Of a DNA stretch of 64,000 nt, positions 4,807-60,759 are shown in pieces; the stretch's first letter is position 1, and each line of letters opens with the position of its first letter. The position numbers and the translations under genes were made by a program. The DNA comes from Dastarcus helophoroides (lineage: Eukaryota > Arthropoda > Insecta > Coleoptera > Bothrideridae). The stretch spans positions 20,422,297-20,486,296 of the forward strand of contig CM053332.1 of the NCBI GenBank assembly GCA_028583605.1, written 5' to 3'. The notes under the pieces were generated by a model. That model ran no database searches and was not told the origin of the DNA. It worked only from the letters and a program-made list of their open reading frames with translations.

Positions 4807-4835
4807 GTTTATGGGAGGAAACTCTTAAGCATTAA

Positions 4836-6066: not shown

Positions 6067-6375
6067 GTGATTTTGCTTCACGACAATGCCCTCCACCACC
6101 CATCCAATTTGTCACATCAAAAATTAGAGAAAATGCATTGGGCAACATTATAACACCCTCCTTATCGTCCCGACTTATCACCATGCGATTATCATATTTT
6201 TAGGCCACTGAAAGAAACTCTAGAAGGTGAGCGATTCCATGATGCTGAAGTTGAAATATTTGTGCGCAATTGGCTACAAAAACTATTCCTTTCTTTTTAT
6301 GATGATGGCATTAAACAACTTCCAATCCATTGGGAAAAATGTAAAACAAGATTAGGAGATTATATAGAAAAATAG
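6067..6375 (+). pseudogene. Mariner-like transposase, C-terminal part, degenerate
   Basis: Conceptual translation gives LLHDNA, then HPPYRPDLSPCDYHIF, then a tail ending GDYIEK and stop. HDN and SPCDYH correspond to the second and third catalytic aspartates of Tc1/mariner (DD34D) transposases, which cut and paste DNA flanked by TIRs. The frame is broken by an apparent single-base shift near 6120 and a stop near 6152, and the N-terminal two thirds are absent, so it cannot make active enzyme. A TIR follows 47 bp downstream. The N-terminal half of a related transposase occurs at 39478-40074. Confidence 0.9.
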
Positions 6376-19355: not shown

Positions 19356-20165
19356 AAAAAGATAAGAATTTTCATAGCCAAATTAATGACTTCTTCATTT
19401 GAATACCCAATGTTATTCAATATTATTTACATTGTTAAAAAATCCTGTAACAGAATTAAAAAATTAACTGGACGCTTCTTAAGTCAAGAAACAAGTTATA
19501 TCCATTTGATTACCCAAATTAGCATCAAACAAAAATAAGAAAAACAAACAAGAACCTTATTTATGCAACGAGTTCTGGCCATACATATCTCCACGCAACT
19601 TTTTTTTTTATGAAAGCACGTTTCCCACAATACTTCATCGGAATATCTAATGAAGACGCTCGACTCTGTTTTCATTTACATCCTCTGTTTATGCCACCTT
19701 ACTACTAAAAACAAGATACTCAAGGTCAACAACACAACTTCCTCCTAAACTTCAGAAGTATCTTTTTACCCACAAACTCGGTGTTTATTTTTGTTTGAAT
19801 AGCAACGATCGATTCATTCATAAACACCACATCCTGCGACCGACCGTGATTCTATCTCGGTCACAAAAGCAGGTGTAATACTTTTGGATATTACATAAGT
19901 ATCACATCAAGATGAGAAGATAAACGAACTGTATTCATTCGTGTTATCGAAAAAAGAGTTCAAGTGACGAGTAAATTAGCACATATGTGATAATTTGTTG
20001 GAAATGGAGCACAATGTTTAGCGGGGACCTCGCCCCCGCAACTTTGCCAAAATTTTAAAGAATAAGTAATTACTGAATAGTATGTTGTATTCTGATTATT
20101 ATTTTAAATCTACCTGAAACATTTCGAGGAGAAATAAAAAAACAAATTCTAATTTAACGTCAATA
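19356..20165. other. Unassigned DNA
   Basis: AT-rich sequence with no recognised gene or repeat. Confidence 0.4.
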
Positions 20166-20169
20166 TTTT

Positions 20170-20450
20170 CTTGTATGCAAGAAGAATGCAACCCAGGCGT
20201 GTATAGTGAATCATAGGTAGTTGAACTACCAACAGTTGAAACACTGCCACCTAGCGAAGCGGTTGCTCTCTAGGAGAGTTCCCAGAAGACAAGGATTCTA
20301 TAATGCACAGACCAATAGGTTTGAACATTTATTAGATTTAAAGTTTGGAAACCAAATACCGAGATCTAACAAGATCGAAACCGGTATTTGGTTTCCAAAC
20401 TTCGAATCTAATAAATGTTCAAACCTATTGGTCTGTGCATTATAGAATAT
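20170..20450 (-). mobile_element. Hammerhead repeat: partial unit with palindrome
   Basis: Part of the ~387-bp repeat (CTACCAACAGTTGAAACACTG, GCGGTTGCTCTCTAG) runs into a near-perfect palindrome, 20295-20361 against 20382-20448 (67-bp arms, 20-bp loop). The fold boundary cuts through the ribozyme: stem II and GAAA remain but the CUGAC part is missing, so this copy should be inactive. Confidence 0.85.
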
Positions 20451-20654
20451 TTTCTTGGTTGAAAAAAATTTTAATCAATAAATTTTCCTAAAATTCCGCA
20501 TTTAAAGTTAAAATTTTTTTAATCGAGTTGTAATAGTGTTTTTTTAAGTGAACATTTTTTAGACTCATTGAACGATTTAGATAGGGGTTCGCGTTCCTTT
20601 CACGCTGATTTGCATCACCAACATCCTCTAATGCTAATATTAACAGTATTATTT

Positions 20655-21560
20655 AGTTATGAATAGAATTCTAAATAGGTTTAAACATTTATTAGATTCG
20701 AAGCTTGGAAACCAAAGACCGGTTTCGATCTTGTCAGTTTGGTACATCCAACCAGAATGCTAACAAATGTTCCGACAAGTAAGTACTAAAGAAACAACGA
20801 ACGTCAAGCGTGTGACTCTCAGTACTACCGCCATCTATTGGTCTATAGAGAAACTATAGCCATCGCCAACAATCTCGCATGCAAGTAGTGTAATGTACCT
20901 ACCCTACCCACTTGGGTCCAGATCCTTCTAAGTACCAAAGTTGTTACATCTGTTTCATCTAAATTACTTATTCTTATTGTGTGTTAGACGTTTCCGCCAC
21001 TTGTAAGATCTAACTAAAGAATAATCGGAAACCCCGTTGCGAAAAAGGATCAGGGTGTAAAATGTATGTATTGTATTTAGAATTAGAATAGTCAGTCTGG
21101 TCAAACCTTTGTTAGAAGTAAGTTTATTATAAGGATCATTTAAAAGTATTAATATATTATAGTACACAAAATCAATCTCTTTAATTATATTTACTAAAGC
21201 ACGTCCGAGGTATCTACGACGGAAAATCCATTACAGTAGAATACAACCTGGACTGCAAATTCATGCAGCCCTCTAGGCATGTATAGTGAATATAGTGAAT
21301 AGCTGAATTACCAACAGTTGAAACACTGCCACCTAGCAAAGCGGTTGCTCTCTAGGAAAGTCCCCAGAAGACAAGGATTCTAATGCAGAGACCAATAGGT
21401 TTGAACATTTATTGGATTCGAAGTTTGGAAACCAAAGACCGGTTTCGTAGGAAGAAAGCTAACAAATGTTCGGACAAATAATTACTAAAAAATCAAGGGA
21501 CGTCAAGCGTTGGATTCTACTTGCATACGACATTATTGGCGATGGCCATGGGACATTTTT
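20655..21560 (-). mobile_element. Hammerhead repeat: degenerate copies
   Basis: Two units of the ~387-bp repeat are separated by about 350 bp of unrelated sequence (20888-21235). In the first, the ribozyme has lost about 10 bp of stem II (GATCTTGTCAG on the plus strand). In the second it is deleted after GGTTTCG. The end at 21525-21555 is in opposite orientation. No active ribozyme is expected. Confidence 0.8.
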
Positions 21561-22195
21561 AAGGAATAACACAAATGATACCATTCAAATTGGGCAAATT
21601 TTACCAAATATTTCCATTAGTATGAAACGTGATTTGAATTTTAAATATAATCAGGAGATTTAATCGAATATGGACTAATATAATGGGCGCAGCATTACAC
21701 CACATTCGAGCTAAAATGGTTGTTTTGAATAACTGTACACGAGTTTCTGCCCACCAACGTACCAAATTCTTCATGGATACTGTTTCATAACACATATGCT
21801 AATTTATTCAAATGCAAAAGAGTGCAGTTCATCAAAGGATATGAGTTTCAATCGAATAAGCACATTAAATGCAAACGAGCTGTGTAGTTAGCAAGCAACC
21901 AAGAGAATGGTTAGTTCGAAGAAAAATCTGGGCTACTTTATCGTGTCTCTTTGAGTGAGATAATTGTTTTCGAACACAATAACCTTTAAATGAAATATTC
22001 ATGTCTATGAATAGAACGGTAATGAAATATCGTATTGCTGCAATTATAGCGAACTCATCTAACAGTTAGCATAGAGAAAGTAAATGATAAAGACTAAAAA
22101 TAAGCGTCTAATTAATTTATTGAAATGAAAACTGCTTTAGGCACGTTAAGGGATTTTAGATAAGGGAGTAATTTTATGGCTTTGTGTTAGCACCA
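21561..22195. other. Unassigned DNA
   Basis: No gene, RNA or repeat recognised. Confidence 0.4.
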
Positions 22196-22199
22196 CGTG

Positions 22200-22300
22200 T
22201 CACACGTTACCAACAACAAAGACAACAAAGGTTCCTCTAAAGCGTTTCGATAGTCAAGCTATCATCTTCAGAGAGATGTTTCTATCAGGGGACAAAATTT
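22200..22300 (-). repeat. Penelope-like hammerhead repeat, copy A
   Basis: On the minus strand it reads CTCTCTGAAGATGATAGC, loop, TATCGAAACGC, TTTAGAGG. The family word CAGGGGACAA occurs nearby in fragmentary form. Stem III is degraded (ACGCUU rather than ACGCGU). It is a truncated member of the family at 28125, 38390, 48920 and 60597. Confidence 0.65.
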
Positions 22301-27640: not shown

Positions 27641-28120
27641 CGAAATTTCCATACTTCCGCGCCTACATCGTCAAGGTGGGAATTAATATGAGCAAACAAA
27701 TATATAATGTGGAAAACAATTTCGTCTTTTACAAATATAATTGATCGATTTTCGACCACCTAACCTTACTTGTAAACACATAAAGGGAAGCCTTTGCTAT
27801 TTTAAAGCAATAAAACGTTTACGCCTCGCGATCGCCAAAGTCTGATGTGGTTGCACCGCCAATAAGTAAATGGTTGGCATATAAATTCATGATGCAAGTC
27901 ATGAGAAGCTCCAAATTTTTACGAGTTAAAATGTTAAAAGGTGATTGACCTGTTACGAAAGAAGAACTTGTAATCTTCACAACGAGGACCAATTTTAAAA
28001 GCATCCTACCTGAACCGAACGAGACCTTTTAATAAGCATTGCATCTACCAGCTAGAATCATTTCATATTTCTTGATGGCGATATTTATTTAAGCATTGGT
28101 TAGTCGAAACATTATTGAAA
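27641..28120. other. Unassigned DNA
   Basis: More balanced composition. The minus frames at 27544-27759 and 27819-28004 have no recognised similarity. Confidence 0.35.
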
Positions 28121-28124
28121 TACA

Positions 28125-28400
28125 GAACTTGTCCCCTGAAATCAAGAAAGATTAAAAAACACAACAAAGGTTGCTCTAACGCGTTTCGACAGCCAAGCTC
28201 TCATCTTCAGAGAGAAACTAGTCAGAGAAACTAGTCAGTTTCTCTCTGAAGATGACAGCTTGGCTGTCGAAACGCGTTAGAGCAACCTTTGTTGTGTTTT
28301 TTAATCTTTCTTGGTTTCAGGGGACAAGTTCTGTATTTCAATTTTTGAAGATAACCAAGGACCAGTCCGTTCCATCAAAAGAAACATTATTGCCCGAAGT
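28125..28400. mobile_element. Penelope-like hammerhead repeat, foldback copy B
   Basis: Two inverted copies of one terminal sequence meet head to head. The left arm runs from the CTTGTCCCCTGAAATC region to CATCTTCAGAGAG at 28214, and the right arm from CTCTCTGAAGATG to CAGGGGACAAG. A short direct duplication, AGAAACTAGTCAG, lies at the centre. The right arm continues with TGAAGATAACCAAGGACCAG, the family's outer end. The plus frame 28252-28434 is inside it. Confidence 0.8.
28242..28282 (+). ncRNA. Candidate hammerhead ribozyme (Penelope-like type)
   Basis: Stem I is CUCU (28242-28245) with AGAG (28279-28282). CUGAAGA is at 28246-28252, an extra U follows, then stem II GACAGC/GCUGUC with a UUG loop, and GAAA at 28269-28272. 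Stem III is the loop-less palindrome ACG/CGU, then U at the cleavage position (28278/28279). The extra U before stem II and the short stem I make activity less certain. A related but mismatched motif is on the minus strand at 28174-28214. Confidence 0.6.
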
Positions 28401-28440: not shown

Positions 28441-28920
28441 ACTTTTATACTAGCAACAACAACAAAATAGTAACAATAACAAAATAGCGATTTCTTCAGC
28501 TTCAGCTTCCTACCGCTGCACATAAAAAAGATTTATTAGGATCCGACACAATTGTATCAAGCGCTATCTTTTCATGGTAGATTAATTCAATTTGGTGAGT
28601 CCTGGAATGCCATTGTAGTTAGCAGTCATAAAATTGACATTTAGAGCTTTTACACCGTGAAAAGCTTAATCAGGAAGTTAGCGTTAATCGTTTTAAATTT
28701 CTGTCCTTAAGTGAGTTTTATGTCGCTCTAAACGAAACTGGAAATTTTCGCTTCCTAGGTGAAAGAACTGTCCGTTAAATAAAATTTGTAATCTCGCAAA
28801 AAAATGTTTAGGCTCAAATATTGATACGAATATTGGAAATATTTGTTGTTTTTCTATATAAAAATTTAGTACTCGCTGTTATATTGCACAGTGATTTTAT
28901 AATTAAACAATTAATCAAAT
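28441..28920. other. Unassigned DNA
   Basis: No feature recognised. A short CAACAA/AATAGTAACAA stretch lies at about 28455-28485. Confidence 0.35.
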
Positions 28921-28970
28921 CCTATAATGCACAGACCAATAGGTTTGAACATTTATTAGATTCGAAGTTT

Positions 28971-29023
28971 GAAAACCAAATACCGGTTTCGACCTTGTTA
29001 GATCTCGTCAGTTTGGTATATCC
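28971..29023 (-). ncRNA. Type I hammerhead ribozyme, array unit 1
   Basis: Minus strand: stem I ACCAAA/UUUGGU, core CUGACGA, stem II GAUCU-AACA-AGGUC (one U-G wobble replacing U-A), GAAA, stem III ACC/GGU with no loop, then A at the cleavage position. All core positions of the hammerhead consensus are present. The wobble keeps stem II paired. Confidence 0.82.
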
Positions 29024-29357
29024 AACTCGAATGCTAACAAATGTTCCGACAAGTAAGTACTGAAACATTCACAAGCGTCGTCAAGCGAGTGACTCTTAGT
29101 ACTACCACCTATTGGTCCATAGAGGAACTATGGCCATCGCCAACAATGTCGTATGCAAGAAGAATGCAACCTAGACTACAAATTCATGCAGCCCTCTTAT
29201 CCAGGCGTGTATAGTGGAATCATAGGTAGCTGAACTACCAACAGTTGAAACACTACCACCTAGCGAAGCGGTTGCTCTCTAGGAGAGTTCCCAGAAGACA
29301 AGCATTCTATAATGCACAGACCAATATAGGTTTGAACATTTATTAGATTCGAAGTTT

Positions 29358-29410
29358 GGAAACCAAATACCGGTTTCGATCTTGTTAGATCTCGTCAGTT
29401 TGGTATATCC
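29358..29410 (-). ncRNA. Type I hammerhead ribozyme, array unit 2
   Basis: Minus strand: CUGACGA, stem II GAUCU-AACA-AGAUC, GAAA, stem III ACC/GGU, A cleavage nucleotide, stem I ACCAAA/UUUGGU with outer GGA/UCC pairing beyond an internal loop. Core intact. Confidence 0.87.
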
Positions 29411-30014
29411 AACTCGAATGCTAACAAATGTTCCGACAAGTAAGTACTGAAACATTCACAGGCGTCGTCAAGCGAGTGACTCTTAGTACTACCACCTATT
29501 GGTCCATAGAGGAACTATGGCCATCGCCAACAATGTCGCATGCAAGAAGAATGCAACCTAGACTACAAATTCATGCAGCCCTCTTATCCAGGCGTGTATA
29601 GTGGAATCATAGGTAGCTGAACTACCAACAGTTGAAACACTGCCACCTAGCGAAGCGGTTGCTCTCTAGGAGAGGTATATCCAACTCGAATGCTAACAAA
29701 TGTTCCGACAAGTAAGTACTGAAACATTCACAAGCGTCGTCAAGCGAGTGACTCTTAGTACTACCACCTATTGGTCCATAGAGGAACTATGGCCATCGCC
29801 AACAATGTCGTATGCAAGAAGAATGCAACCTAGACTACAAATTCATGCAGCCTTCCAGGCGTGTATAGTGGTGAATCATAGGTAGCTGAACTACCAACAG
29901 TTGAAACACTGCCACTTAGCGAAGCGGTTGCTCTCTTAGGTGAGTTCCCAGAAGACAAGCATTCTATAATGCACAGACCAATATAGGTTTGAACATTTAT
30001 TAGATTCGAAGTTT

Positions 30015-30067
30015 GGAAACCAAATACCGGTTTCGATCTTGTTAGATCTCGTCAGTTTGGTATATCC
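30015..30067 (-). ncRNA. Type I hammerhead ribozyme, last array unit
   Basis: Same core and stems as the copy at 29358, intact. It lies 657 bp from that copy because the unit in between is internally deleted. Confidence 0.87.
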
Positions 30068-30208
30068 AACTCGAATGCTAACAAATGTTCCGACAAGTAA
30101 GTACTGAAACATTCACAGGCGTCGTCAAGCGAGTGACTCTTAGTACTACCACCTATTGGTCCATAGAGGAACTATGGCCATCGCCAACAATGTCGTATGC
30201 AAGAAGAA

Positions 30209-31130
30209 TTAATCAAATAGTGACACAATTTGAATAACACACAGTGAACTTTTCACGTAGACAATTTTAGAGAAAAACATCGATATTTGCAAAAAAAGTA
30301 TCTCTCTGGGGAAGTTTGAATCCAACATTTTGAGAAAAAATTCATATAATTACAAGAGAAATTCAAAAGTTATGAAAAAAAGGAGGCAGAACTGTTTGAA
30401 ACAGCCTCGTCCATTTCACCGAAAATTTGAAATTTCTTTTGCTCTTTTGGATCACTGATTTGTTGCTCCTTCGAAAGAAAAAGTCAAACGTTGATCGCTA
30501 TTCTATCAGAAATTATAGAAAGAAATATTACTTTTACTAACAACTAACAACATCAACTTATCAACTGACTTGTGTAGAAGGTTTGCACTGATAGCTTTCT
30601 GGAAGTTTAAATGAATATCGATCGTAAAACAGTTACATCTAATAAAAATAAGATAAATTTCATTGGATCGTTTCCATCTGGATAACTGTATCACCTATTT
30701 TATTTCATTTTAAGGTCATACTGTGGCTGAATTATCTACAGTTATGATCACTGAACACTGTCTCAGAATTTAGTTTTTCTTTTAAAGTGTTTACTTCCAA
30801 ATTGATTTTTACCATGATAGAGTATTATGTAAGCATTAACTTCACAATTTATTGTTATTCATAATTGAATACAAATAATGAATTTCCTCTACATTCACTA
30901 CACCAGAAACGACCATTTATAATGTCAAATGGAGAGTAAAATTTGCATGAAACAAAAATAGTGTGACTACGTAAATTTATCATTTTACGTCGAAATTCTA
31001 CGTAATTATGAAATGTTTATTGATATTTGATTGATGGTAAATTATTTATTTCCTCAACGTATATAATTACGTAACAATTCCTATTTATGCGTAGAATCCT
31101 GTCACTGGTGGCTTGTTTCTGTCCTCCAGG
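30209..31130. other. Unassigned DNA
   Basis: AT-rich, no recognised gene or repeat. Confidence 0.4.
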
Positions 31131-34100
31131 TAGGGATGTCGATCTGAGATCGATTAATCGAAATATCGATTTTTTCAAGTCTCAAAGTCGATTTTTTAGA
31201 TTGATCTCCAATACAAGATCGATCTAATGAACGATTCAAAAATCCTAAGAATCGGATCGATTTACCTTAGATGTTGGTCACTGTAAATTTAATGACAAAA
31301 ATTTTTTATATAAGTGTATTTAGGTAGCTATGTTATTCTTCACTTTCTTCCACTAGCAACAGCTACGTTAATAAGCCAACAGATGGCAGCATTAAGGTTT
31401 CTTTTCATTCATTATGTCGTTGACTCAATAGGAAAAATAACTGTGGTGCAGTTAAAATTACCGTATTTTCACAAAAATTACCCTACGTTATTTTATTACT
31501 TGTTACCCGTCTTAAATACTTTTATTTAGCGATTGAATACGTTACATACGTATTAATAAATACGCTACAAAACTTGAAAAAAGTTTATTTATTGTTTTTG
31601 AAGTAAAAATTACAAGAGCAAAGAAAGGACATCAATTTGAAAAAAAATTGTAACTGAATGTTGACTTTTTCCTCCTCTAAATTCCGAAATTAAAGTCGAA
31701 ATTTTGACTTAAATGTCAACATTTCGGAAAAAAGTCGAAATTTGGAGTTTAAAGTCGAAATTTCTTGAAAAAAGTTAAAATTTTAATTTTTAAATCGTAA
31801 TTTAACGAAATGTTTACAAATGCGTAGAAAGAGCAACGATTTTAGAAATTTCGACTTTTTTCTCAAACTGCGACTTTTTTCTCAAATTTCGCGTTTTTCT
31901 CAATTCGACTTTTTTCTGGAAATTTCAACTTTTTCAAAATGGTACAAAGGCCTAGAAAGGATTTCGATTTTAAAAAAAATGTTATTTCGAAAAATTTCGA
32001 CTTTTTTTCTCAAATTTCGATTTTAAGCTCGAAATTTCGACTTTTTTCTAGAAATTTCAAATTTTTCTCAGATTTCGATTTTTTTTCTCAAAATTTCGGC
32101 TTTTTTCTCCTAATTTTGACTTTTTTATCAAATTCGAATTTTTTTCTTGAAATTTCGACCTTTTTCTTGAAAATTCGTTTTTTTTTCTCAAATTTCGACT
32201 TCTTTCTCGAAACTTTGGCCTCAATATCGAAATTTCGACATTTTTCTCGAAATTTCGACTTTAGACTCAAAATTTCGACTTTCTTTCTCGAAATTTCAAC
32301 TTTTTTCGCAAATTTTGACTTTCTTTCTCCAAATTTCGACTTCTTTCGCAAATTTTGACTTTTTTTAATCGAAATTTTGACTTTTTGCTCGAAATTTCGA
32401 CTTTTTTCCTCGTAATTTCGACTTTGTTCTCGAAATCTTGACTTTTTTCTTAAATTACGACTTTTTTCTCGAAATATTTCGAAATTTCGACTTTAAACTC
32501 AAAATTTCGACTTTCTTTCTCGAAATTTCGACTTTTTTCGCAAATTTTGATTTTTTTTCTTAAAATTTCGACTTTTTTTCTCGAAATTTTAACTTTGTTC
32601 TCGAAATCTCAACTTTTTTTTTTAATTTCGACTTTTTCCTCGAAATATTTCGAAATTTCGACTTTAGACCTAAAATTTGGGTTTCTTTTTTCGAAATTTC
32701 GACTTTTTTCGCAAAATTTGACTTTTTTTCTTGAAATTTCTACTTTTTTCTCGAAATTTCGACTTTTTTTCTCGAAATTTTAACTTTTTTCTCGAAATCT
32801 CGACTTTTTTTTCTTAAATTTCGACTTTTTTTCTCGAAATTTTAACTTTTTTCTCGAAATCTCGACTTTTTTTTCTTAAATTTCGACTTTTTTTCTCGAA
32901 ATACTTCAAAATTTCGACTTTAAATTCAAAATTTCGACTTTTTTCTCTCGAAATTTCGACTTTTTTCATAAATTTCGACTTTTTTCCCAAATTTCGATTT
33001 TAAGCTCGAAATTTCGAATTTTTCTAAAATTTGGACTTTTTTCTCGTAATTTTGACTTCTTCTCAAATTTGATTTTTTTCTTGAAATTTCCACCTCTTTC
33101 TAGAAAATTCGTTTTTTTTCCTCAAATTATTTCAACCTTTTTCTTGAAACTTTGACCTTAATATCGAAATATCGACAGTTTTCTCGAAATTTCGACTTTT
33201 TTCCGACATTTCGACTTTTTTCTCGACATTTCGACTTTTTTTTCGCAAATTTTGATTTTTTTCTAGAAATTTCGACTTTTTTCGCAAATTTTGACTTTTT
33301 TTATCGAAATTTCGACTTTTTCCTCCAAATTTTGACTTTGTTCTCGAAATCGACTCTTTTTTTTTAAATTTCGACTTTTTTCTTGAAATATTTCGAAATT
33401 TTGACTTTAAACTCAAAATTTCGACTTTTTTCTCGAAATTTCGACTTTTTCCGCAAATTTTGACTTTTTTTTCGAAATTTCGACTTTTTCTCTAGAAATT
33501 TCGATTTTTTCTCGAAATCTCTACATTTTTCTTAAATTTCGAATTTTTATCGAAATCTCGGCTTTTTTCTAGAAATATTTCGAAATTTCAACTTTAAAAT
33601 CAAAATTTCGACTTCTTTTCTCTAAATTACGACTTTTTTCGCAAATTCTAACTTTTTTCTCGAAATTTCGACTTTTTTCTCGAAATTTCGACCTTTTTTT
33701 CTCGAAATTTTAACTTTTTTTCTCAAAATCTCGACATTTTCCTTAAATTTCGATTTTTTTCTCAAAACCTCGACTTTTCGACTTTAAACTTAAAATTTGG
33801 ACCTTTTTTCTCGAAATTTCGACTTTTTCCGCAAATTTTGACTTTTTTTCTCGAAATTTCGACTTTTTTTCTCAAAATTTCGATTTCTTTTCTCGGAATC
33901 TCAACTGCTTTTTTAATTTCGACTTTTTTCTCGAAATATTTCGAAATTTCGACTTTAGACTCAGTTTCGATTTCTTTTTTCGAAATTTCGACTTTTTTTC
34001 GCAAAATTTGACTTGTTCTCTCGAAATTTCGACTTTTTTCTCGAAATCTCGACTTTTTTCTTAAATTTCAAATTTTTTCTCGAGATATTTCGAAATTTCG

Positions 34101-35529
34101 ACTTTAAACTCAAAATCTCGACTTTTTTTCTCTAAATTTCGACTTTTTGTCTTGAAATTTTGACTTTGTTCTCGAAAGCGCGACTTTTTTCTTAAATTTC
34201 GACTTTTTTCTCGAAATTTCGCCTTTTTTCGCAGATTTTGACTTTTCTCTCGAAATTTCGACTTTTTTTTCTCGAAATTTTGACTTTTTTCTGGAAATCT
34301 CGACTTTTTTCTTAAATTTCGACTTTTTTTCTGGAAATCTCGACTTTTTTCTTAAATTTCGAATTTTTTCTCGAAATATTTCGAAATTTCGGCTTTAAAT
34401 TTAAAATTTCGACTTTTTTTCTCGAAATTTCAACTTTTTTCATAAATTTTGACTTTTTGTTTTCAAAATTTCGACTTTTTTCTCGAAATTTCATCTCTTT
34501 TCTTGAAATCTCGACTCTTTTCTTAAATTTCGTCTTTTTTCTCGAAATATTTCGAAATTTCGACTTTGTTTCTCGAAATTTCGACTTTTTGCGCAAATTT
34601 TGACTTTCTTCTCGAAATTTCGACTTTTTTTTTCGAAATTTTGACTTTTGCCACGAAATCTTGACTTTTTTCTTAAATTGCGACTTTTTTCTTGAAATCT
34701 TGACTTTTTTCTTAAATTTCGACTTTTTTTCTGGAAATATTTCGAAATTTCGACTTTCTTTTTCGAAATATTTCGAAATTTCGACTATAACCTCAAAATT
34801 TCGACTTTTTTCTCGAAAAGTTCAACTTTTTTCGCAGATTTTGACTTTTTTCTCAAAACTTCGACTTTTTTCTCGAAATTTGGACTTTTTACTCGAAATC
34901 TCGACGTTTTTCTCAAATTTTGACTTTTTTCTCGAAATATTTCGAAATTTCGACGTTTTTCTCGAAATTTTGGCGTTTTTCTCAAATTTCGACTTTTTTT
35001 CTCGAGTCTTCGTTTTTTTTCTCAAATTTCGCCTTTTTTCTCGAAATTTTGACTTTATTATCGAAATTTCGACTTTTTTCTCAAAATCTCGAATTTTATC
35101 CCAAATTTCAACTTTTTTTTCGAAATATTCGAAATTTAGACTTTTTTCTCAAAATTTCGACTTTTTTCCCAAATTTCGACTTTTTTCTTGAAATTTCGAC
35201 CTTAATCTGAAAAGTACAACAAAATCTCGAATTTTATTTCAATTTTCGACTTTTTTCTCAAATATCTATTCTTTTCTCGAAATTTAGACCTTAGTATCTC
35301 AATTTCGACATTATTCTCGAAATTTCACGTTTTTTTTTTAGAAATTTTGACTTTTTCCCCAAATTTAGACCTTTTCCTCGAAATTTTCACCTTATAAGGT
35401 CGAAATTTCGACTTTTTTTCAAATTTCGATTTTTTTCCCCGAAACTTCGATCTTAATCGCGGAATTTCAATTAAAAACTCGAAATTTCGACTATTTTCTC
35501 GAAATTTCAACTTTAATCTCGAAATTTCT

Positions 35530-38192: not shown

Positions 38193-38389
38193 CTATTAAA
38201 CATTTTTTTATTATTTTTTTCAATTAAAATTAATTATGTTAAAATATGACGTTATTGAATCTTGTGCAGGATAAAATGGGCAGAAATCAACTAGTTTCTA
38301 ATATTAATAATAAAAAAAAGAAAAATGACAACATACAAACCGTCTTATTTCTAAAAAAACAATCTCAAGCATCAATTTGAGTTTTTTTT

Positions 38390-38585
38390 TTGGTGGAACG
38401 GACTGGTCCTTGGTTATCTTCAAAAATTAAAATACAAATCTTGTTCCCTGAAACCCAGACAAGTTAAAAAACACAATAGAGGTTGCTTTAATGCGTTTCG
38501 GTAGCCAAGCTATCATCTTCACAAAGATACTTTCCTTTTTTAATCTTTCTTGGTTTCAGGGGACAAGATTTGAATTTCAATCAAT
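38390..38585 (-). repeat. Penelope-like hammerhead repeat, copy C
   Basis: Starts GGAACGGACTGGTCCTTGG, passes through a degraded hammerhead motif (CTTCACAAAG in place of CTTCAGAGAG), then rejoins an inverted partial arm (TTTCTTGGTTTCAGGGGACA). Ribozyme core damaged. Confidence 0.7.
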
Positions 38586-40990: not shown

Positions 40991-41198
40991 TCCAACTTTC
41001 TATGCAAGTAGAATGCAACCTAGACTACAAATTCATGCAGCCCCCCAGGCGTGTATAGTGAATCATAGGTAGCTGAACTACCAACAGTTGAAACACTGCC
41101 ACCTAGCGAAGCGGTTGCTCTCTAGGAACAATTTCCCAGAAGACAAGGATTCTAATGCACAGACCAATAGGTTTGAACATTTATTAGATTCGAAGTTT

Positions 41199-41251
41199 GG
41201 AAACCAAATACCGGTTTCGATCTTGTTAAATCTCGTCAGTTTGGTATATCC
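41199..41251 (-). ncRNA. Type I hammerhead ribozyme, left palindrome arm
   Basis: Minus strand: CUGACGA, stem II GAUUU-AACA-AGAUC (one U-G wobble), GAAA, stem III ACC/GGU, A at the cleavage site. Core intact. A transcript covering both arms would mostly form the long hairpin instead. Confidence 0.8.
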
Positions 41252-41299
41252 AACTCGAATGCTAACAAACTTGTCGGAACATTTGTTAGCATTCGAGTT

Positions 41300-41352
41300 G
41301 GATATACCAAACTGACAAGATCTAACAAGATCGAAACCGGTATTTGGTTTCC
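41300..41352 (+). ncRNA. Hammerhead ribozyme, right arm, core mutated
   Basis: Plus strand: as the other copies, but the core reads CUGACAA. The conserved G (position 8 of the hammerhead numbering) is A, so it should be inactive or very weak. Confidence 0.75.
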
Positions 41353-42113
41353 AAACTTCGAATCTAATAAATGTTCAAACCTATTGGTCTGTGCATTAGA
41401 ATCCTTGAATTTTCTAAACAATCATCAACCTTTGTATTTATATAACAATCTGTTTTCAATGTACTGATTTTTCGTGGTTATGTAATAAACATTTTAATTT
41501 GAATTATTTCAATTACTACAAATAATGAGTTATTGCAGTCTTCGTTGGATAAGTCGATATGCAAAATATGTTGAATTAGGGATGTCGATTCCTTTTTAAA
41601 ATAATCGATTTTTGGATCGATTCGAATCGTGAGCAAAAGTATCGATTCCCGATAAAATTGGGTGCTAAAAGATCGATTTCCGATTAATCGCCTTGTTGGT
41701 GAAATTTTTAAACATTTCTAATAAAACAAAAATTAAATGATAATGATGAATTGGCGTAGTTTAATTTTGAAATTTTTTTCGTCTAAACACTAATATTTGT
41801 ATTTTAATTATTCATTCCTAATTAGAAAAACCCGATACACATTTATTATCTGCTTTGTTTTTTATTTATGCATTTTTGGTGTTTTTTACGAACATGTAGA
41901 AAAGGCACTCTTTTATAAAAATATATTTACAAATATGAAGTTTAAACTGAAAATTACGAGATTAAACTGGGAATTTCTACTTTATTTTACAAATTTTGAC
42001 TCTTTTCGAAGACATTTCATAGGATAGAGTCGAAATTTTGGCTTTAATCTCCAAATTTCAACTTTTTTTCATGAAATTTCAAGATAAGTAGAAATTTTCT
42101 ATTCTATGGTTAA

Positions 42114-42930: not shown

Positions 42931-43062
42931 TTTTTTTACAAGTTTCGAGAAAAAAGTCGAAATTTCGACTTTTAAATCGAGATTTTGTGATTAAGATCAA
43001 ATTTTCGAGAAAAAAGTCGGAATTTGAGAAAAAGTCGAAATTTGAGGAAAAAATCGAAATTT

Positions 43063-43470
43063 TGATCTTATACGCTCGAAATTCCGAGAAAAAAGTAGAA
43101 ATTTGAGAAAAAAGTCGAAATTTGTAGAAAAAAATGTCGAAATTTTGAGTTTGAAGTCGGAATTTCGAGAAAAATGTCGAAATTTCGATATCAAGGTCAA
43201 AATTTCGAGAAAAAAGTTCGATATTTGAGAAAAATATCAAAAATTGAGAAAAAAAAAACAAATTTCGAAAAAAAAAGTCAAGCTTTTCAGATTAAGGTCA
43301 AAATTTCGAGAAAAAAGTCGAAATTAGAGAAAAAGTGGAGATTTCGAAAAAGAAGTCGAAATTGTAAAAAAAAGTCGAAATTTCGAAAATAAAGTCGAAA
43401 TTTTGACTTTAAAGTCGAAATTTCCAGAAAAATATCGCAATTTTCGATATTAAGGTCAAAATTTCGAGAA
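43063..43470. repeat. Direct duplicate of minisatellite flanking the purine tract, left
   Basis: Starts GATCTTATACGCTCGAAATT and is colinear for about 385 bp with 45485-45870 (GATCTTATAAGCTCGAAATT), including the odd word CAAGCTTTTCAGATTAAGG. The two lie about 2.42 kb apart and bracket the purine tract. Confidence 0.85.
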
Positions 43471-43483
43471 AAAAGTTGAAAGT

Positions 43484-45485
43484 TGAGGAAGCAGGAGAAG
43501 AGGAAGAATATGAAGAAGAGGGCGAAGTATAGAGGGAGTACGAGGGAGAAAAAGAGGAAGAAAAAGAAGAACAAGAAGAAGAGGAAGAGAATATAAAATA
43601 GAAGAAGATGGAAGATAATAGGAAGCAAAAAAGGAAGACGAGGAAGAAGAAAAGTATAGGAAGAAGAAGAGGTAGAAGAAGAGGAAAAAGGGGAGGAAAA
43701 ACAAGAGGAAGAAAAGAAATAATAAGAAGACAAAGAAGAGGAAGAAAAGAAAGAATAAGAAGACGAAGAAGAGGAAGAAGGAGTAGAAGAAAAAGAAGAA
43801 GTCTTAAGAAGAAGAAAAAGTAGAAGAGGAAAACGAGAAAGATGAAGAAAAGAAAGTAGAGGAAGAAAAAGAAGAGGAAGAAGAAGAGGAAAAAAGAAGG
43901 AGTAAGAACGGGAAGAAGAAGAATATCAAGGAAAAGAGGGCAAAGTATAGAGGGGATTAGGAGGAAGAAAAAGAGGAAGAAGGAGAACAAGAAGAAGAGG
44001 AAGAGAAAGTGAAAAAGAAGAAGATGAAAGGTAATAGGAAGAAGAAAAGGAAGTAGAGGAAGAAGAAGAGGCAGAAAAAGAGGAAGAAAAAGAGGAAAAA
44101 GACGAGGAAGAACAACAGAAAGAAAAGGAAAAAGAAGAGAAGAAAGAATAAGAAGACGAAGACGAGGAAGAAGAATAAAAGAAAGAAGTTAAAGAATCTT
44201 AAGAGAAAGAACAAGCAGCAGAGTAAGACGAGAAAAAGAATAAAAAGAAGTAGAGGAAGAAAAAGAAGAGAAAGAAAATAAGGAAGAAGAGGAAGAGGAA
44301 AAAGAGGGAAAAGAACAAGAGGAAGAAGAGGAGAAATAATAAGAAAATGAAGAAAAGGAAGAAGTAGAAGAGAAAGAAGATACAGGAAAAAAACTCTTAA
44401 AAAGAGGAAGAACAAGCAGAAGAGAAAGACGAGAAAGAAGAAGAAAAGGAAGTAGAGGAAGAAGAAGAGGAAGAAGAAAAGGAAGAGAAAAAAGAGGAGA
44501 AAGAACAAGAGGCAGAAGAGGAGGAATAATAAAAATATGAACAATAGGAAGAAGTAGAAGAGAAATTAGGAAGACGAGAAAAAAGAAGAGAAGGATCTAG
44601 ACGAATAAAAAGAGGAAGAAAAAGAAAAAGAGAAAGAAGAGGAAAAAAGGAAATAGAAGAAGGGGAAGAGGAAGAATATGAAGAAGAAGAGGGCGAAGTA
44701 TAGAGGAAGTAGAAGGAAGAAAAAGAGGAAAAAGAAGAAAAAGAAGAAGAGGAAGAGAATATAAAAAAGAAGAAAATGAGAGATAATAGGAAGCAAAAGA
44801 GGAAGACGAGGAAGAAGAAAAGTAGAGGAAGAAAAAGAGGTAGAAGAAGAGGAAAAGGAGGAAAAAGAGGAGGAAGAACAAGAGGAAGAAAAGAAAGAAG
44901 AGGAAGAATAATAAGGCGAAGAAGAGGAAGAAGGAGTAGAAGAGAAAGAAGAAGAGAAAAAAAAAGAAGTCTTAAGAAGAGGAAGACAAATCAGCAGAGG
45001 AAGACGAGAAAGAAGAAGAAAAGGAAGTAGAGGAAGAAATGAACGAGGAAGAAAAAGAGGAGGAAGCAGAAGAGAAAAAAATGAGGAGTAAGAACGGAAA
45101 GAGGAAGAATATGAAGAAGGAGAGGGGGTCAAAGTACAGAGGGGACAAGCAGGAAGAAAAAGAGAAAGAAAAGGAATAAGAAAAAGAAGAAGAGAAGATG
45201 AAAAAAAGAAGATTAAAGATAATAGGAAGAAGAAAAGGAAGAAGAAGCAAAGGAGCAAGAGGAGAAAGAAGAAGAAAAGGAAGTAGAGGAAGAAGAAGTA
45301 GAAGAGAAAGAAGTTAAAGGAAAAAAGTCTTAAGAAGAGGAAAAACAAGCAGAAGAGGAAGACGAGAAAGAAGAAGAAAAGGAAATAGAGGAAGAAGAAG
45401 AAGAGGAAGAGGAAGAGGAAGAGGAAGAGGAAGAGGAAGAGGAAGAGGAAGAGGAAGAGGAAGAGGAAGAGGAAGAAGAGGAAGA
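43484..45485. repeat. 2-kb homopurine tract (GAAGAGGAA-type)
   Basis: Almost pure A/G on the plus strand, ending in a (GAGGAA)n run at about 45398-45480. Irregular longer units are marked by GTCTTAAGAAGAGG-type words (43801, 44968, 45328). The 90-260-aa minus-strand frames (Phe/Leu/Ser-rich) exist because a pyrimidine strand has no stop codons. The plus frames are Lys/Arg/Glu runs. Neither is a gene. Confidence 0.95.
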
Positions 45486-45870
45486 TCTTATAAGCTCGAA
45501 ATTCCGAGAAAAAAGTAGAAATTTGAGAAAAAAGTCAAAATTTGTAGAAAAAAAGTCGAAATTTGTAGAAAAAAAGACGAAATTTTGAGTTTAAAGTCGA
45601 AATTTCGAGAAAAATGTCGAAATTTCGATATCAAGGTCAAAATTTCGAGAAAAAAGTCCATATTTGAGAAAAATATCGAAAATTGAGAGAAAAAAACCAA
45701 ATTTCGAGAAAAAAAATCAAGCTTTTCAGATTAAGGTCAACATTTCGAGAAAAAAGTCGAAATTTGAGAAAAAGTGGAGATTTCGAAAAAATGTCGAAAT
45801 TGTAAAAAAAAGTCGAAATTTCGAAAATGACTTTAAAGTCGAAATTTCCAGAAAAAAAAGGTCGACATTT
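45485..45870. repeat. Direct duplicate flanking the purine tract, right
   Basis: Second copy of the segment at 43063-43470, with scattered substitutions. Ordinary minisatellite continues to about 46830. Confidence 0.85.
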
Positions 45871-47792
45871 TGAGTCAAAATTTTGAGAAAAAAGTCGAAA
45901 TTTCGAGCTTAAAATCGAAGTTTGGGAAAAAAGTCGGAATTTCTAAAAATAACATTTTTTTTACTCGATGTCCTTTCTATGCCTTTATAACATTTCGAAA
46001 AAGTTGAATTTTTCAGAACAAAATCGAAAGTTTCCCCAAAAAAGTCGAATTTTAAGAAAAAAAGTCGAATTTTGAGAGAAAAGTCGAAATTTAAGAAAAA
46101 AGTCGAAATTTTGGGAAAGAAGGTCAAAATGTTGAGTTTAAAGTCGAAAATTCGAAAAAAATGTCGAAACTTCGGGAAAAAGTCGAAATTTGCGAAAAAC
46201 GTTGAAATTTGGGAAAAAAGTCGAGATTTCGACAAAAAAGTCGAAATTTCGATATTAAGGTCAAAAGTGAGTTCAAAGTCGAAATTTCGGTATTAAGATC
46301 AAAATTTTGAGAAAAAGGCCGAAATTTGAGAAACAAAAAACGAAGAAACAAAAACGAAATTTGAGGAAAAAGTCAAAATTTCAAGAAAAAAGTCGAAATT
46401 TTGAGAAAAAAAGTCGAAATTTAAGAAAAAAGTCGAAATTTCGAGAAAAAAGTCGAAATTTCGAGCTTAAAATCGAAAAATAACATTTTTTTTTAAATCG
46501 ATTTGCTTTCTGCGTCTTCGCAACATTTCGAAAAAGTTCAAATTTTCAGAAAAAAGTCGAAAATGTGAGAAGAGTCGAAATTTGACAAAAAAGTGAGAAC
46601 TTCAAATAAAGGTCGAAGTTTGAGAGAAAATTTGAAATTTTTAAAATAAGGTTTATTTTTAATCGATGTCCTTTCTACGCTTTGGTAACATTTCGTTAAA
46701 TTTTAATTTGAAAATTGAAATTTCTACTTTTTTCTAAAAATTTCGACTCTAAGCTCCAAATTTCGACTTATTTTCGAAATTTTGATACTAGAGTCGAAAT
46801 TTTAACTCTAATCTAGGGATTTAGAGGAGGAAAAGTCAACATTCCGTGATAATTTTTTTTTCAAATTGATGTTCTTTCTACGCTCTTGTAATTTCTACTT
46901 CAAAAAAAGTAAATAAACTTATTTCAAGTTTTGTAGTGTATTTATTAATACGCGTGTAACGTTTTAACCACTAAATAAAAGTTTTTAAGACTGGTAACAG
47001 GTAATAAAATAATTTATCTTCAAATATATGGCAACACTGCACAACAGTTATCTTTCCTCATCAGTCAACGACATAATGAATGAAAAAAAAATATTAATAC
47101 TGCCACATATTGGCTTATTAACGCAGTTATTGGTAGATGGAAGTAGATAATAACATGACATAAATACACTTACATAACAAATAAAAAAAATTCTCATTAA
47201 ATTTACAGTGACCTGCATCTAAGGTAAATCGATTCGATTCTTAGGATTTTTGAATCGTTCATTAGATCGATCCTATATTTGAGATCGATCTAAAAAATCG
47301 AACTTGAGACATGAAAAAATCGATTTTTCGATTAATCGATCTCAGATCGACATCCCTATGTTGAATTAACTTTAAAGTTCGAATATATTAAAATAATTTT
47401 ACCAAATAATTGACATTTCCAATTTTACCTTTATGTATCAGCAACTGCTTCTCAGGCAGCTTTCCGCGCCACTTGTATTTATAAGGAAATACTTCACTCG
47501 ACAACATGAAAAGGATACATTAAACTTCGGCCATAAAAAATAAAAAATCTTTAAGCTGTTACTAATTATTAAAACTTCATGTAATTTTAGGACATCCCCT
47601 TCTGGCATCAATTAAACTGAGTAAATGTTCAAAACATGTTTGGTCCATTCTTAAAAAAGTTGGCAACGGTCCCACAGTTGCCTTCTTGAAGTTGCTAATT
47701 CATTAGATTTTAACCGTCTTCTCTATATTCGAGGTCTTGTCTATATTCGAGGTCTCGCTCACTAACGTCTATTTCTATATAAATAAATAGCC

Positions 47793-48767: not shown

Positions 48768-48919
48768 TGTTACAACTCCACACTTTCCAATAATTATTTC
48801 AGTTATTAAAATGGAAATAATAAATGCTTATGAAATATTAAATCCGAATTTCCATATTTTATAATGCTGTCGTTACTTACAATTAGTTTTTTTTATTGGT
48901 TGGTTTAATAAAATGATTT

Positions 48920-49165
48920 TTTTTTGTGGAACGGACTGGTCCTTGGTTATCTTCAAAAATTGAAATACAAATCTTGTCCTCTGAAACCAAGAAAGATTAA
49001 AAAACACAACAAAGGTTGCTCTAATGCGTTTCGACAGCCAAGCTATCATCTTCAGAGAGATATGTATCTGACAGCTTGGCTGTCGAAACGCGTTAGAACA
49101 ACCTTTGTTGTGTTTTTTAATCTGTCTTGGTTTCAGGGGGCAATATTTTCATTTCAATTAATAAA
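48920..49165 (-). mobile_element. Penelope-like hammerhead repeat, foldback copy D
   Basis: GGAACGGACTGGTCCTTGG leads to a minus-strand hammerhead-like motif at about 49019-49059. Its core CUGAAGA and GAAA are present, but stem III is ACGCAU and stem II has a wobble. An inverted partial arm follows from 49070 (GACAGCTTGGCTGTCGAAAC) to TTTCAGGGGGCAA. Confidence 0.75.
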
Positions 49166-49511
49166 ATGATTATGCATCGAATTTTGCTCTGTCTGTATCC
49201 TTCTTCAACTCTATTATTAGCCTTAACGAATGCAAGAAAAATATCGTACGTTTCCTCAATATTTTTCCCCAAAATATAAGAGGTTTGAGGCCAAAAAAGG
49301 TTATCAAAAGGTACAATAATTAGAAAGCGAGAACTTGGAAATTCAGATCTATTCACAACATTTACCTGTCATTTTTCTTTCTTATTATCATTCTGGGCAG
49401 ACTACATAAAACCTTTTAAATGAGCAATAATTCTAATCAAAAATTGGGCCCAGCTTCGAAAACAATATTCCAAAGATATGTACGTTGTCTGAACGATGAC
49501 TAAATGAAGTT

Positions 49512-49645
49512 TTGGTGGAACGGACTGGTTCTTGGTTATCTTCAAAAACTGAATACAAATCTTCGAAACGCGTTAGAGCAACCTTTGTTGTGTTATTTAA
49601 TCCTTCTGGGTTTCAGGGAAGAAGATTTGTATTTCAATTTGACTA
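49512..49645. repeat. Penelope-like hammerhead repeat, truncated foldback copy E
   Basis: The outer end GGAACGGACTGGTTCTTGG is joined directly to CTTCGAAACGCGTTAGAGC and TTTCAGGGAAGAAG. The ribozyme 5' half is deleted. Confidence 0.7.
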
Positions 49646-51051: not shown

Positions 51052-54000
51052 CAAAGAGGAAGAGGACGAAGAAGAGAAAGAAGAACGAGAGAAGAAAGAA
51101 GGGGAAGAGGAAGAAGGGGAAGAGGAAGAAGGGAAAGAGGGGTAAGAGAAAGAAGGTGAAGAGGAAGAAGGGAAAGAAGGGGAAGAGGAAGAAGGAAAAG
51201 AAGGGGAAGAGAAAGAAGATGAACGAGAAAAGAAAGAAGAAGGAGAAGAGAAAGATGAGGAAGAATAAGAAGAAGTAGAAGAAGAAGAAAAAGAAAAGGA
51301 AGGCGAAGAAGGGGAAGAAGAGGAGAAAAAGAGAAAGAGAAAAAAGAGGAGTGAGAAAAAGAATATAACGGGAAGAGGAAACAGAGGAGAAGAGAAACAA
51401 AAAGAGAAGGAAGAAGAGGAAGAAAAAGATGAAGAAGAAGAACAAGAATAAGAAGAGGAAGAAGAAAAGGAAAAACGCAAGATGAGTCAGAAGATCAAGG
51501 AAAAGAGGAAGAAGGTGAAAGTAGAGGAAGAAGAAGGGGACAATGATGAAGAGAAGAAGAGGAAGAACAGGAAGAGCAAGAAGAATGTGAAGAGAAAGAG
51601 AAGAAAAAGAAGAACAAGAGAAAGAACAAAAAAAAGAGAAAAAAGGAGATGAAGGAGAAGAGGAAGAAGAAGAGGAATACAAAAAAGGGAAAGCGGGATA
51701 AGCAGAGAAAGAAGGGGAAGAAGAAGAAGAATATGAAGGAGGAGAGGGCGAAGTATAAAGGTGAGGAGAAGGAGGAAGAAGAAAAAGAGGAAGAGGAAGC
51801 ACAAAAAGAAGAGGAAAAGAAGACAAAAAAGAAGATAAAAAATAATAACAAGTAGAATAGAAAGAAGAAGCAAAAGAGGAAGACGAGAAAGAAGAAGAAA
51901 AGAAAGAAAAAGAGGGACAAAAGAAAGAAGAGGAGAAAGAATAAGTAAGAAGACGAAGAAGAGGAAGAAGAAGTAGAAGAGTAAAGAAAAGAGGAAAAAG
52001 AAGAAGACTTAAGAGGAAGGAGAAGCAGAAGAGGAAGACGAGAAAGAAGAAAAGAAAGTAAAGGAAGAAGAAGAGGAAGAAGAAGAGAAAGAAGAAGAGA
52101 AAGAAGAAGAGAAAGAGGAAGAGGAGGAAGAATAAGTAGATGAAGAAGAAGAAGAGAAAGAATAAGGAGAAAAGAAGTCTTAAGAAGAGGAAGAAGAAGC
52201 AGGAGAGGAAGACGAGAAAAAAGAAGAGAAGGATCTAGAGGAATAAAAAGAGGAAGAAAAAGAAAAAGAGAAAGAAGAGGAAAAAAGGAAATAGAAGAAG
52301 GGGAAGAGGAAGAATATGAAGAAGAAGAGGGCGAAGTATACAGAGAGTAGAAGGAAGAAAAAGAGGAAGAAGAAGAATAAGAAGAAGAGGAAGAGAATAT
52401 AAAAAAGAAGAAAATGAGAGATAATTTAAAGCAAAAGAGGAAGACGAGGAAGAAGAAGAGGTAGAAAAAGAGGAAAAGGAGGAAAAAGAAGAGGAAGAAC
52501 AAGAGGAAGAAGAAGAGGTAGAAGAAGAGGAAAAGGAGGAAAAAGAAGAGGAAGAACAAGAGGAAGAAAAGAAAGAAGAGGAAGAATAATAAGGCGAAGA
52601 AGAGGAAGAAGGAGTAGAAGAGAAAGAAGAAGAGAAAAAAAAAGAGAAAAAAAAGAAGTCTTGAGAAGAGGAAGACAAAGCAGCAGAGAAAGACGCAAAA
52701 GAAGAAGAAAAGGAAGTAGAGGACGAAATGAAAGAGGAAGAAAAAGAGGAGGAAGCAGAAGAGGAAAAAATGAGGAGTAAGAACAGAAAGAGGAAGAATA
52801 TGAAGGAGGAGAGGGGGCAAAGTATAGAAGGGACTAGGAGGAAAAAAAGAAAGAGAAAAGGAACAAGAAAAAGAGAAAGAGAAGATGAAAAAAAAAGATG
52901 AAAGATAATAGGAAGAAAAAAAGGAAAAAGAAGCAAAGGAGTAAGAGGAGAAAGAAGAAGAAAAGGAAGTAGAGGAAGAAGAAGAGGCAGAAGAAGAGGC
53001 AGAAGAAGAGGAAGAGGAAAAAGGGGAAAACGAGAAGGAAGAACAACAGAAAGGAATAGAAGGAGAAGAGGAGAAAGAGCAAGAAGAGGAAGAAGTAGAA
53101 GAGAAAGGAGTTAAAGGAAAAAAGTGTTAAGAAGAGGAAGAACAAGCAGAAGAGGAAGACGAGAAAGAGAAAGAAAAGGAAATAGAGGAAGAAGGAGAAA
53201 AGGAAGAAGAAAAGGAATAAGAGGAAGAAGAGGAGAATTAATAATAATATGAAGAAAAGCAAAAAAGGGGAAGGGAAAGAAAATAAAGGAAAAAAAGACG
53301 TAAAATGAGGAAGAACAGGTAGAAAAGGAAGACGAGAAAGAAGAAAAGGAAGAAGAAGAGAAGAGGAAGAAACGGAAAAAGGGAAGAAAGAACAAGAGGA
53401 AGAAAAGGAGAAATAATAAGAAGATGAAGAAGAGGAAGAAATAGAAGAGAAAGAAGATAAAGGAAAAAAGTCTTAAGGAGAGGAAGAACAAGCAAAAGAG
53501 GAAGACGAGAAAGAAGAAGAAAAGGAAGTAGAGGAAGAAGAAGAGGATGGAGAAAAGGAAGAAGAGGAAGAGGAAGGAGAGGACAAAGAGGAGAAAGAAC
53601 AAGAGAAAGAAGCGGAGAAATAATAAGAAGATGAAGAAAAGGATGAAGTAGAAGAGAAAGAAGATAAAGGAAAAAAGTCTTGAAAAGAGGAAGAACAAGC
53701 AGAAGAGGAAAACGAGAAAGAAGAAGAAAAGGACGTAGAGGAAGAAAAAGAGAAAGAAGAAAAGGAAGAAGAAGAGGAAGAGGCAGAAGAGAAAAAAGAG
53801 GAGAAAGAACAAGAGGATGAAGAAGAGGAATAATAAGAAGATGAGCAAGAGGAAGAAGTAAAAGAGAAAGAAGATAAAGGAAAAAAGTCTTAAAAAGAGG
53901 AAGAACAAGCAGAAGAGAAAAAAGAGAAAGAAGAAGAAAAGGAAATAGAGTAAGAAGAAAAAGAGGAAGAAAAAAAGGAAGAAGAGGAAGAAGAGGAAAA

Positions 54001-54477
54001 AGAGGAGAAAGAACAAGATGAAGGAGAGGAGAAATAATAAGAAGATGAAGAAAAGGAAGAAGTAGAAGAGAAAGAAAGTACAGGAAAAAGTCTTAAAAAG
54101 AGGAAGAACAAACAGAAGAGAAAGACGAGAAAGAAGAAGAAAAGGAAGTAGAGGAAGAAGAGGAAGAAGAAAAGAAAGAGGAGAAAGAACAAGAAGAAGA
54201 GGAGAAATAATAAGAAGATGAAGAAGAGGAAGAAGTAGAAGAGAAAGAAGATAAAGGAAAAAAGTCTTAAGAAGAGGAAGAACAAGCAGAAGAGGAAGAC
54301 GGGAAAGAAGAAGAAAAGGAAGTAGAGGAAGAAGAAGAGGAAGATGAAAAAGAAGAAGAAGAGAAAGAGGAAGAAGAGGAGAAAGAACAAGAGGAAGAAG
54401 AGGAGGAATAATAAGAAGATGAAGAAGAGGAAGAAGAAGTAGAAGAGAAAGAAGGAGAAGAAGAAAAAAGAAGTCTT
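51052..54477. repeat. 3.4-kb homopurine tract
   Basis: Almost pure A/G on the plus strand. From about 53470 it is organised in 176-211-bp units marked by AAGTCTTAAGAAGAGG (53470, 53676, 53887, 54090, 54266, 54472), each containing GAACAAGCAGAAGAGGAAGA. The longest apparent frames in the window (441 and 465 aa, minus strand, F/L/S only) lie here and are artefacts of a strand without stop codons. It is related to the tract at 43484-45485. Confidence 0.95.
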
Positions 54478-60262: not shown

Positions 60263-60277
60263 CAAAAGTATCATGTT

Positions 60278-60725: not shown

Positions 60726-60759
60726 AAAAAGTATTAATTTGAAAACTCGAAACTATAAA

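Follow-up and report, generated by a model that had tools for sequence, protein, structure and literature searches.

Metazoan non-LTR retrozymes, in the portion of the literature considered here, carry type I hammerhead ribozymes within short tandem repeats of 150-450 bp (350-390 bp in mussels), have a GC content below 50%, are flanked by target site duplications (TSDs) longer than 4 bp and share their genomes with Penelope-like elements (PLEs) (Cervera and de la Pena 2020, PMC7229834). Retrozyme RNA is known from tissue in self-cleaved linear and circular forms, stable self-pairing being described for the circles as well (PMC7229834), and PLEs have been singled out as strong candidates for the agent that mobilises animal retrozymes (PMC7229834; PMC7761336).

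In the sections of the PLE reports used here, the bdelloid Penelope elements possess inverted pseudo-LTRs (pLTRs), one of them with an optional 31-bp tail, and TSDs of 8-10 bp in three cases, two further insertions having none; their pLTRs can integrate foreign sequence in trans, and the head-to-head copies were explained by the authors through self-priming (PMC3846280). The protein of the hammerhead-bearing Anolis PLE cuts and extends both target strands, initiating within the RNA at 111-118 bp of the ORF; its two starts bound a tail of 30-40 bp, and the start sites on the top and bottom strands are alike; the ribozyme cut only in the presence of the protein, ribozyme mutants were inserted as well, and no reads ended at the cut site (PMC11167929). 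Minimal type I hammerheads occur in the pLTRs of PLEs (PMC7761336).

The window, i.e. the whole 64-kb stretch of Dastarcus helophoroides DNA that was analysed, harbours a tandem repeat with a period of 387 bp (98% matches, 2.0 copies at 28922-29674 according to Tandem Repeats Finder). BLAST with the first unit extends this array to 30209 through the unit parts 1-387, 1-366, 94-387 and 1-244, the third of which lacks the ribozyme part, and the ribozyme strand of the array is the minus strand. Within the 64-kb window, copies outside the array lie near 20.2, 20.7, 21.2, 41.0 and 59.8 kb (BLAST, with nhmmer in agreement). The unit has a GC content of 42.6% (30.7% in the window) and a longest stop-free stretch of 58 codons, and is non-coding with no ORF of note. 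The coordinates of all inserts, ribozyme cores and duplications are listed in Table 1.

Table 1. Inserts, hammerhead cores and end duplications in the window. Fractions of random site pairs are flattering, because the insert bounds were picked after such matches had been sought.
Feature	Position	Sense strand	Basis or remark
Insert A1, head-to-head inverted copy	20174-20445		left end monomer 216, right end 59; arm junction by eye
Copy A2, diverged, 10-nt deletion in hammerhead core	20674-20888	-	BLAST; no duplication found
Copy A3, diverged, truncated, short inverted piece	21235-21549		BLAST; no duplication found
Insert B, tandem array of 387-bp unit	28921-30206	-	Tandem Repeats Finder, BLAST
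Insert C, head-to-head inverted copy	41003-41407		weak 9-bp duplication, one mismatch
Insert D, short inverted left arm and sense arm of one full turn of the unit	59800-60263	+	
Type I hammerhead core B1	28975-29017	-	descriptor, Rfam; G-U in stem II
Type I hammerhead core B2	29362-29404	-	descriptor, Rfam
Type I hammerhead core B4	30019-30061	-	descriptor, Rfam
Hammerhead core, copy C minus	41203-41245	-	descriptor, Rfam; G-U in stem II
Hammerhead, copy C plus, damaged core CUGACAA	41306-41348	+	alignment/fold
Hammerhead core, copy D	59999-60041	+	descriptor, Rfam; predicted cut 60035/60036
Duplication of A1, AATATTTTCTTG	20162-20173 and 20446-20457		12 bp exact; 1/3000 random pairs as long
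Left duplication of B, AATTAATCAAAT	28909-28920		12 bp exact; 0/3000 random site pairs reach this length
Right duplication of B, AATTAATCAAAT	30207-30218		12 bp exact
Duplication of C, weak	40994-41002 and 41408-41416		9 bp, one mismatch; 3.3% of random pairs
Duplication of D, AAAGGTATCAT / AAAAGTATCAT	59789-59799 and 60264-60274		11 bp, one mismatch; 0.9% of random pairs
Penelope-like 5' piece, degraded	22192-22277	-	no duplication found
Penelope-like 5' piece, head-to-head inverted	28118-28380		12-bp duplication; arm ends: ORF 87, ORF 129
Penelope-like 5' piece, head-to-head inverted	38384-38579		13-bp duplication; arm ends: ORF 129 (+4 nt), ORF 89
Penelope-like 5' piece, head-to-head inverted	48919-49157		14-bp duplication; arm ends: ORF 129 (+2 nt), ORF 90
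Penelope-like 5' piece, inverted	49507-49639		weak 10-bp duplication, one mismatch; arm ends: ORF 129 (+3 nt), ORF 92
Penelope-like 5' piece, one arm only, from hammerhead stem I to ORF 112, then A-run	60597-60730	+	13-bp duplication

The ribozyme motif consists of stem I ACCAAA, CUGACGA, stem II with an AACA loop, GAAA, CCGG, and UA and UUUGGU on either side of the predicted cut. A descriptor (CUGANGA, stem II of at least 4 bp, GAAA, stem III of at least 2 bp, UH and stem I of at least 5 bp) matches at exactly five places in the window, all of them inside the 387-bp repeat; 200 dinucleotide shuffles gave a mean of 0.015 matches and a maximum of 1, and the five matches, being homologous, count as one event. 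The core is intact, with a loop-less stem III, in five of the nine copies of the ribozyme region (the arms of A1 being counted once, and the third unit of array B and the short left arm of D omitted), and the motif is partly lost in A1, A2 and A3. Two pairs of stem II vary among the five intact copies, each to G-U. As regards the canonical helix III and the contacts between loops 1 and 2, a stem I internal loop and a 4-nt loop II are present and helix III is minimal.

A hammerhead-bearing tandem repeat of about 387 bp had been proposed in an earlier note on this DNA, and is borne out by Tandem Repeats Finder, BLAST and the descriptor scan. The five motif sites that the note assigned to one common repeat were found again, 4-6 nt away from the positions first given, and the cut that it placed at 60035/60036 is consistent with the motif of copy D. 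In the comparison with Rfam, no match was returned at the gathering score, whereas by E-value Hammerhead_HH9 (RF02275) was recognised at six places, including the damaged copy, with 29.6-34.4 bits (E 6.9e-5 to 2.4e-3; gathering score 52). The best of these, which is also the best ribozyme covariance match, covers model positions 1-77 of 77 (E 6.9e-5, 34.4 bits); the model, however, has a loop on stem III, which the 387-bp repeat lacks.

The loop-less palindromic ACCGGU limits a monomer to a minimal stem III. In five copies the 76-nt ribozyme region is more stable than its shuffles (z -2.1 to -3.8), and the whole linear unit is strongly self-paired (z -6.1, 100 shuffles), stable self-pairing being a feature of the retrozyme circles too (PMC7229834). 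The best RNAfold structure of the monomer is not the hammerhead (-21.3 versus -11.0 kcal/mol for the hammerhead without stem III) and contains other pairings in part of the core; nor did folding two strands together yield the hammerhead dimer, and folding programs cannot score a loop-less stem III or tertiary contacts. Since the best fold lacks the hammerhead, its formation may depend on dimerisation or on the help of a protein.

By eye, an A-box-like TAGC(ATTCG)AGTTGG and a B-box-like ACTTCGAATCT were seen to flank the hammerhead on the sense strand of the unit at 28922-29308. These we take to resemble the A-box and B-box consensus, and they could mark an internal Pol III promoter; the resemblance may be due to chance.

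To describe the inserts, the sense monomer was numbered 1-387 from the predicted cut and the arms were placed by BLAST on a tripled unit, while arm limits, junctions and insert bounds were set by eye after candidate duplications had been seen. The five inserts other than B are not simple tandems, and A1, C and D, three of the five copies outside the array, are clearly head-to-head inverted. The sense 3' ends recur at two places: near the cut at 59 in B (with one extra nucleotide), 59 in the right arm of A1 and 60 in the left arm of D, and farther away at 216 in the left arms of A1 and C (214 in C with its duplication) and 216 in the right arm of D (with 3 nt before the duplication). The right arm of C lies off the near cluster, the BLAST alignment reaching 56 and a further 9 nt bringing the end, by eye, to about 65-68. 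Six of the seven ends thus fall within two clusters of ±1, none of 100000 random draws being as good, with the ends of the diverged copies (43 in A2, 210 in A3) omitted from the count. In each of the three clearly inverted inserts, one arm carries a near end and the other a far end, and the two putative start sites lie 157 nt apart.

Hairpins at the two start sites were considered as a counterpart of the published AC-rich stem loop and were dropped: in seven of the eight folds the stability did not exceed that of shuffles, and the remaining one (z -2.1) takes in host flank. Rfam mir-977 matches the minus strand of insert C at 41233-41318 (E 6.9e-6; 45 bits, the gathering score being 109), and this match probably reflects the palindromic centre of the insert, not a microRNA.

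End duplications of 9-12 bp were detected in four of the six inserts, clear in A1 and B, fair in D and weak in C; in A2 and A3 they were sought and none was found. The test applied masks simple repeats and demands register, an earlier null having been inflated by repeats and loose register. The sense 5' ends are more scattered, at 206 in B and A2, 210 and 4 in the right and left arms of D, 383 and 362 in the left and right arms of A1, and 327 and 314 in C. Two of these eight (A3 being omitted) lie within 5 nt of the predicted cut, which is expected by chance in 2% of cases under a cut-off chosen post hoc, and is only a hint that arm 5' ends coincide with the cut. In B, A2 and D the sense 5' end (206, 206 and 210) stands just ahead of the far start site at 216, and CTTCTTGCATA (monomer 206-216; 30196-30206 and 60250-60260) is used at both ends. 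The sense arm of D makes one full turn of the unit (210 to 216, with a 7-nt overlap), and B, 1286 nt long, spans more than three units and jumps once internally (353 to 81); hence the template was a circle or a multimer, unless more than one template was joined.

The window contains a second hammerhead-type family, in which CTCTCTGAAGATG-stem-CGAAACG is found at 22.3, 28.2 (twice), 49.1 and 60.6 kb; a variant stands at 38.5 kb and a shorter piece at 49.5 kb. Drawn by hand, the motif forms a type I hammerhead whose stem II is preceded by an additional U. In it 91.7% of the stem cells pair, as compared with 28-45% when the drawing is slid, the shuffle control being weak (84 of 500 shuffles are as good for cells paired); two pairs show compensatory changes, and 45 of 500 shuffles do as well. 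The first core C is missing in the copy at 38.5 kb. The end of the core coincides with an ATG, and in the hand drawing the cut would fall after nt 27 from the A of this ATG, while in the Anolis PLE the ORF starts at stem II and the cut lies 26 bp downstream (PMC11167929). Solely from this hammerhead-ATG arrangement and from the insertion anatomy, the second family is read as putative 5' pieces of a Penelope-like element.

All four inverted loci of this family have near ends at ORF 87, 89, 90 or 92 and far ends at 129-133, a range that includes 0-4 unaligned nucleotides and an open-ended comparison, since the reference stopped at ORF 129. These ends would correspond to about 30 and 43 codons, whereas the bdelloid pLTR holds the first 12 codons, or 22 with the tail (PMC3846280). 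In all seven inverted inserts of the two families one near end is combined with one far end. Runs of 4-9 A precede the duplication at the far end of four of the five second-family loci (28377-28380, 38384-38391, 48919-48925 and 60722-60730), which would also fit a LINE tail. As the pieces end at about ORF 133, a reverse transcriptase (RT) is not expected in them; no RT domain was found by Pfam in six frames of 19.0-29.0, 36.5-41.5 and 56.5-61.5 kb (20 of the 64 kb) or in ten ORFs, one of which covers the 49 kb loci.

Other repeats and relics were noted in the window. The minus-strand segment 39484-39903 gave one protein match (P0001, 61% over 51%) and a weak Transposase_1 match (E 0.0023, below the cut-off), and 6154-6372 (+), which has no Pfam match, contains a motif that we take to be mariner-like; both are, by judgement, relics of mariner-like transposases. 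A tandem array of 12 copies of 110 bp occupies 3511-4807 (Tandem Repeats Finder), and a 20-bp unit, AAATTTCGACTTTTTTCTCG, forms large arrays on either strand at 31992-35528, 42943-43481, 45496-46465 and elsewhere. Long purine-rich arrays of GAA type at 43547-45485 and 51054-54473 show minus-strand stop-free stretches of up to 543 codons, likely due to composition. Exact-pattern scans of viral, bacterial and archaeal contig collections gave no matches, and such collections say little about an animal repeat.

Compared with the metazoan non-LTR retrozymes (PMC7229834), the 387-bp repeat is alike in its type I hammerhead (core intact in five of nine copies), its unit length within 150-450 bp, its non-coding unit with a GC content below 50%, its TSDs longer than 4 bp and the presence of a putative PLE beside it. 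The retrozyme-like character claimed by the earlier note is in keeping with the size, the GC content, the lack of an ORF and the duplications at the insert ends; the head-to-head inserts and the second family are absent from that note. The repeat differs in its minimal, loop-less stem III and in its insertion pattern, half of the six inserts being clearly inverted head to head, with ends that recur at two sites. With the PLEs (PMC3846280, PMC11167929) it shares inverted head-to-head arms, unequal ends, short TSDs and partial tandems, and with the Anolis PLE also the hammerhead (PMC11167929). Unlike PLEs, the unit has no coding region (RT, GIY-YIG), and its start sites are 157 nt apart, not 30-40 (PMC11167929).

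Taken together, the data are best read, with a probability of roughly 0.58, as a non-autonomous, non-coding animal (non-LTR) retroelement of the retrozyme kind, which carries a type I hammerhead with minimal stem III and is inserted in trans by PLE machinery. According to this reading, tandem transcripts would cut themselves into monomers of about 387 nt, perhaps as a dimer or with the help of a protein, and the monomers might be circularised. The predicted PLE machinery would then place new copies in trans: both target strands would be cut and primed, one cDNA beginning about 60 nt after the cut site and the other at about 216, and the two arms would be joined head to head, leaving a duplication of about 9-14 bp.

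The more general proposition seems to us somewhat short of an even chance, namely that PLE-type machinery inserts animal retrozymes in trans, a circle or multimer being primed on both strands at two fixed internal sites so that head-to-head inserts mirroring the resident Penelope-like element arise. The inverted 387-bp inserts that bear on this mechanism are few, only three. In the sections of the Anolis report used here, top- and bottom-strand start sites are alike, which is at odds with a separate site for each strand, and ribozyme mutants were inserted and no reads ended at the cut, which disfavours a contribution of cleavage (PMC11167929). Self-priming as the bdelloid explanation of head-to-head copies and the two bdelloid insertions lacking TSDs (PMC3846280) likewise count against the preferred reading, as do the negative RT search in the 20 kb and ten ORFs scanned, the A-runs of the second family, the Rfam scores below gathering, the monomer and two-strand folds, the start-site hairpins at chance level and the insert bounds set by eye.

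An unlikely but serious alternative is that the 387-bp unit is itself a pLTR, belonging to a different autonomous Penelope-like element with its coding part outside the window, the copies being solo pLTR inserts that involve no circular RNA. Minimal type I hammerheads are present in PLE pLTRs (PMC7761336), the Anolis PLE inserts without need of its ribozyme (PMC11167929), and head-to-head arms with unequal ends as well as partial tandems are hallmarks of PLEs. The units of B, however, adjoin each other directly with no coding stretch between them, no stop-free stretch of the unit exceeds 58 codons, and the start sites are not spaced by 30-40.

The mover of a retrozyme could also be a LINE acting through target-primed reverse transcription, with twin priming, which gives inversions, accounting for the inverted arms; the lengths of the duplications fit the use of a LINE, and the A-runs at the far ends of the second family point in the same direction. 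Hammerhead repeats of Nematostella are flanked by 15-bp LINE-like TSDs in the part of that report considered here (PMC4918200). Twin priming, however, predicts no fixed internal arm end, and such an end is fixed in all three clearly inverted 387-bp inserts and all four second-family loci; nor do the 387-bp inserts end in an A-tail, apart from the A's of the duplication of D. We regard this explanation as doubtful. Less probable still is satellite DNA, or a tandem repeat born of recombination, with a decaying hammerhead and no present mobility: the single tandem array and the four broken ribozyme copies of nine would suit it, but distinct inserts that have duplications of their own and ends that recur would not. 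Least credible of all is a foldback or MITE-type DNA transposon with the inverted arms as terminal inverted repeats, for although three of six inserts are clearly inverted and A3 partly so, each inverted insert has two unlike ends (about 60 and 216), and B consists of direct units only.

Under the preferred reading of a retrozyme inserted by PLE machinery, the 387-bp repeat is a new family, and the insertion anatomy is the new part: the literature covered, which is incomplete, yielded no description of head-to-head retrozyme inserts. The enzyme that moves animal retrozymes is an open question. If the reading is true, the published suggestion that PLEs move retrozymes gains a signature that can be read in DNA, and the presence in one window of two hammerhead-type families with a common two-ended anatomy would make the question of the mover testable in sequenced animal genomes.
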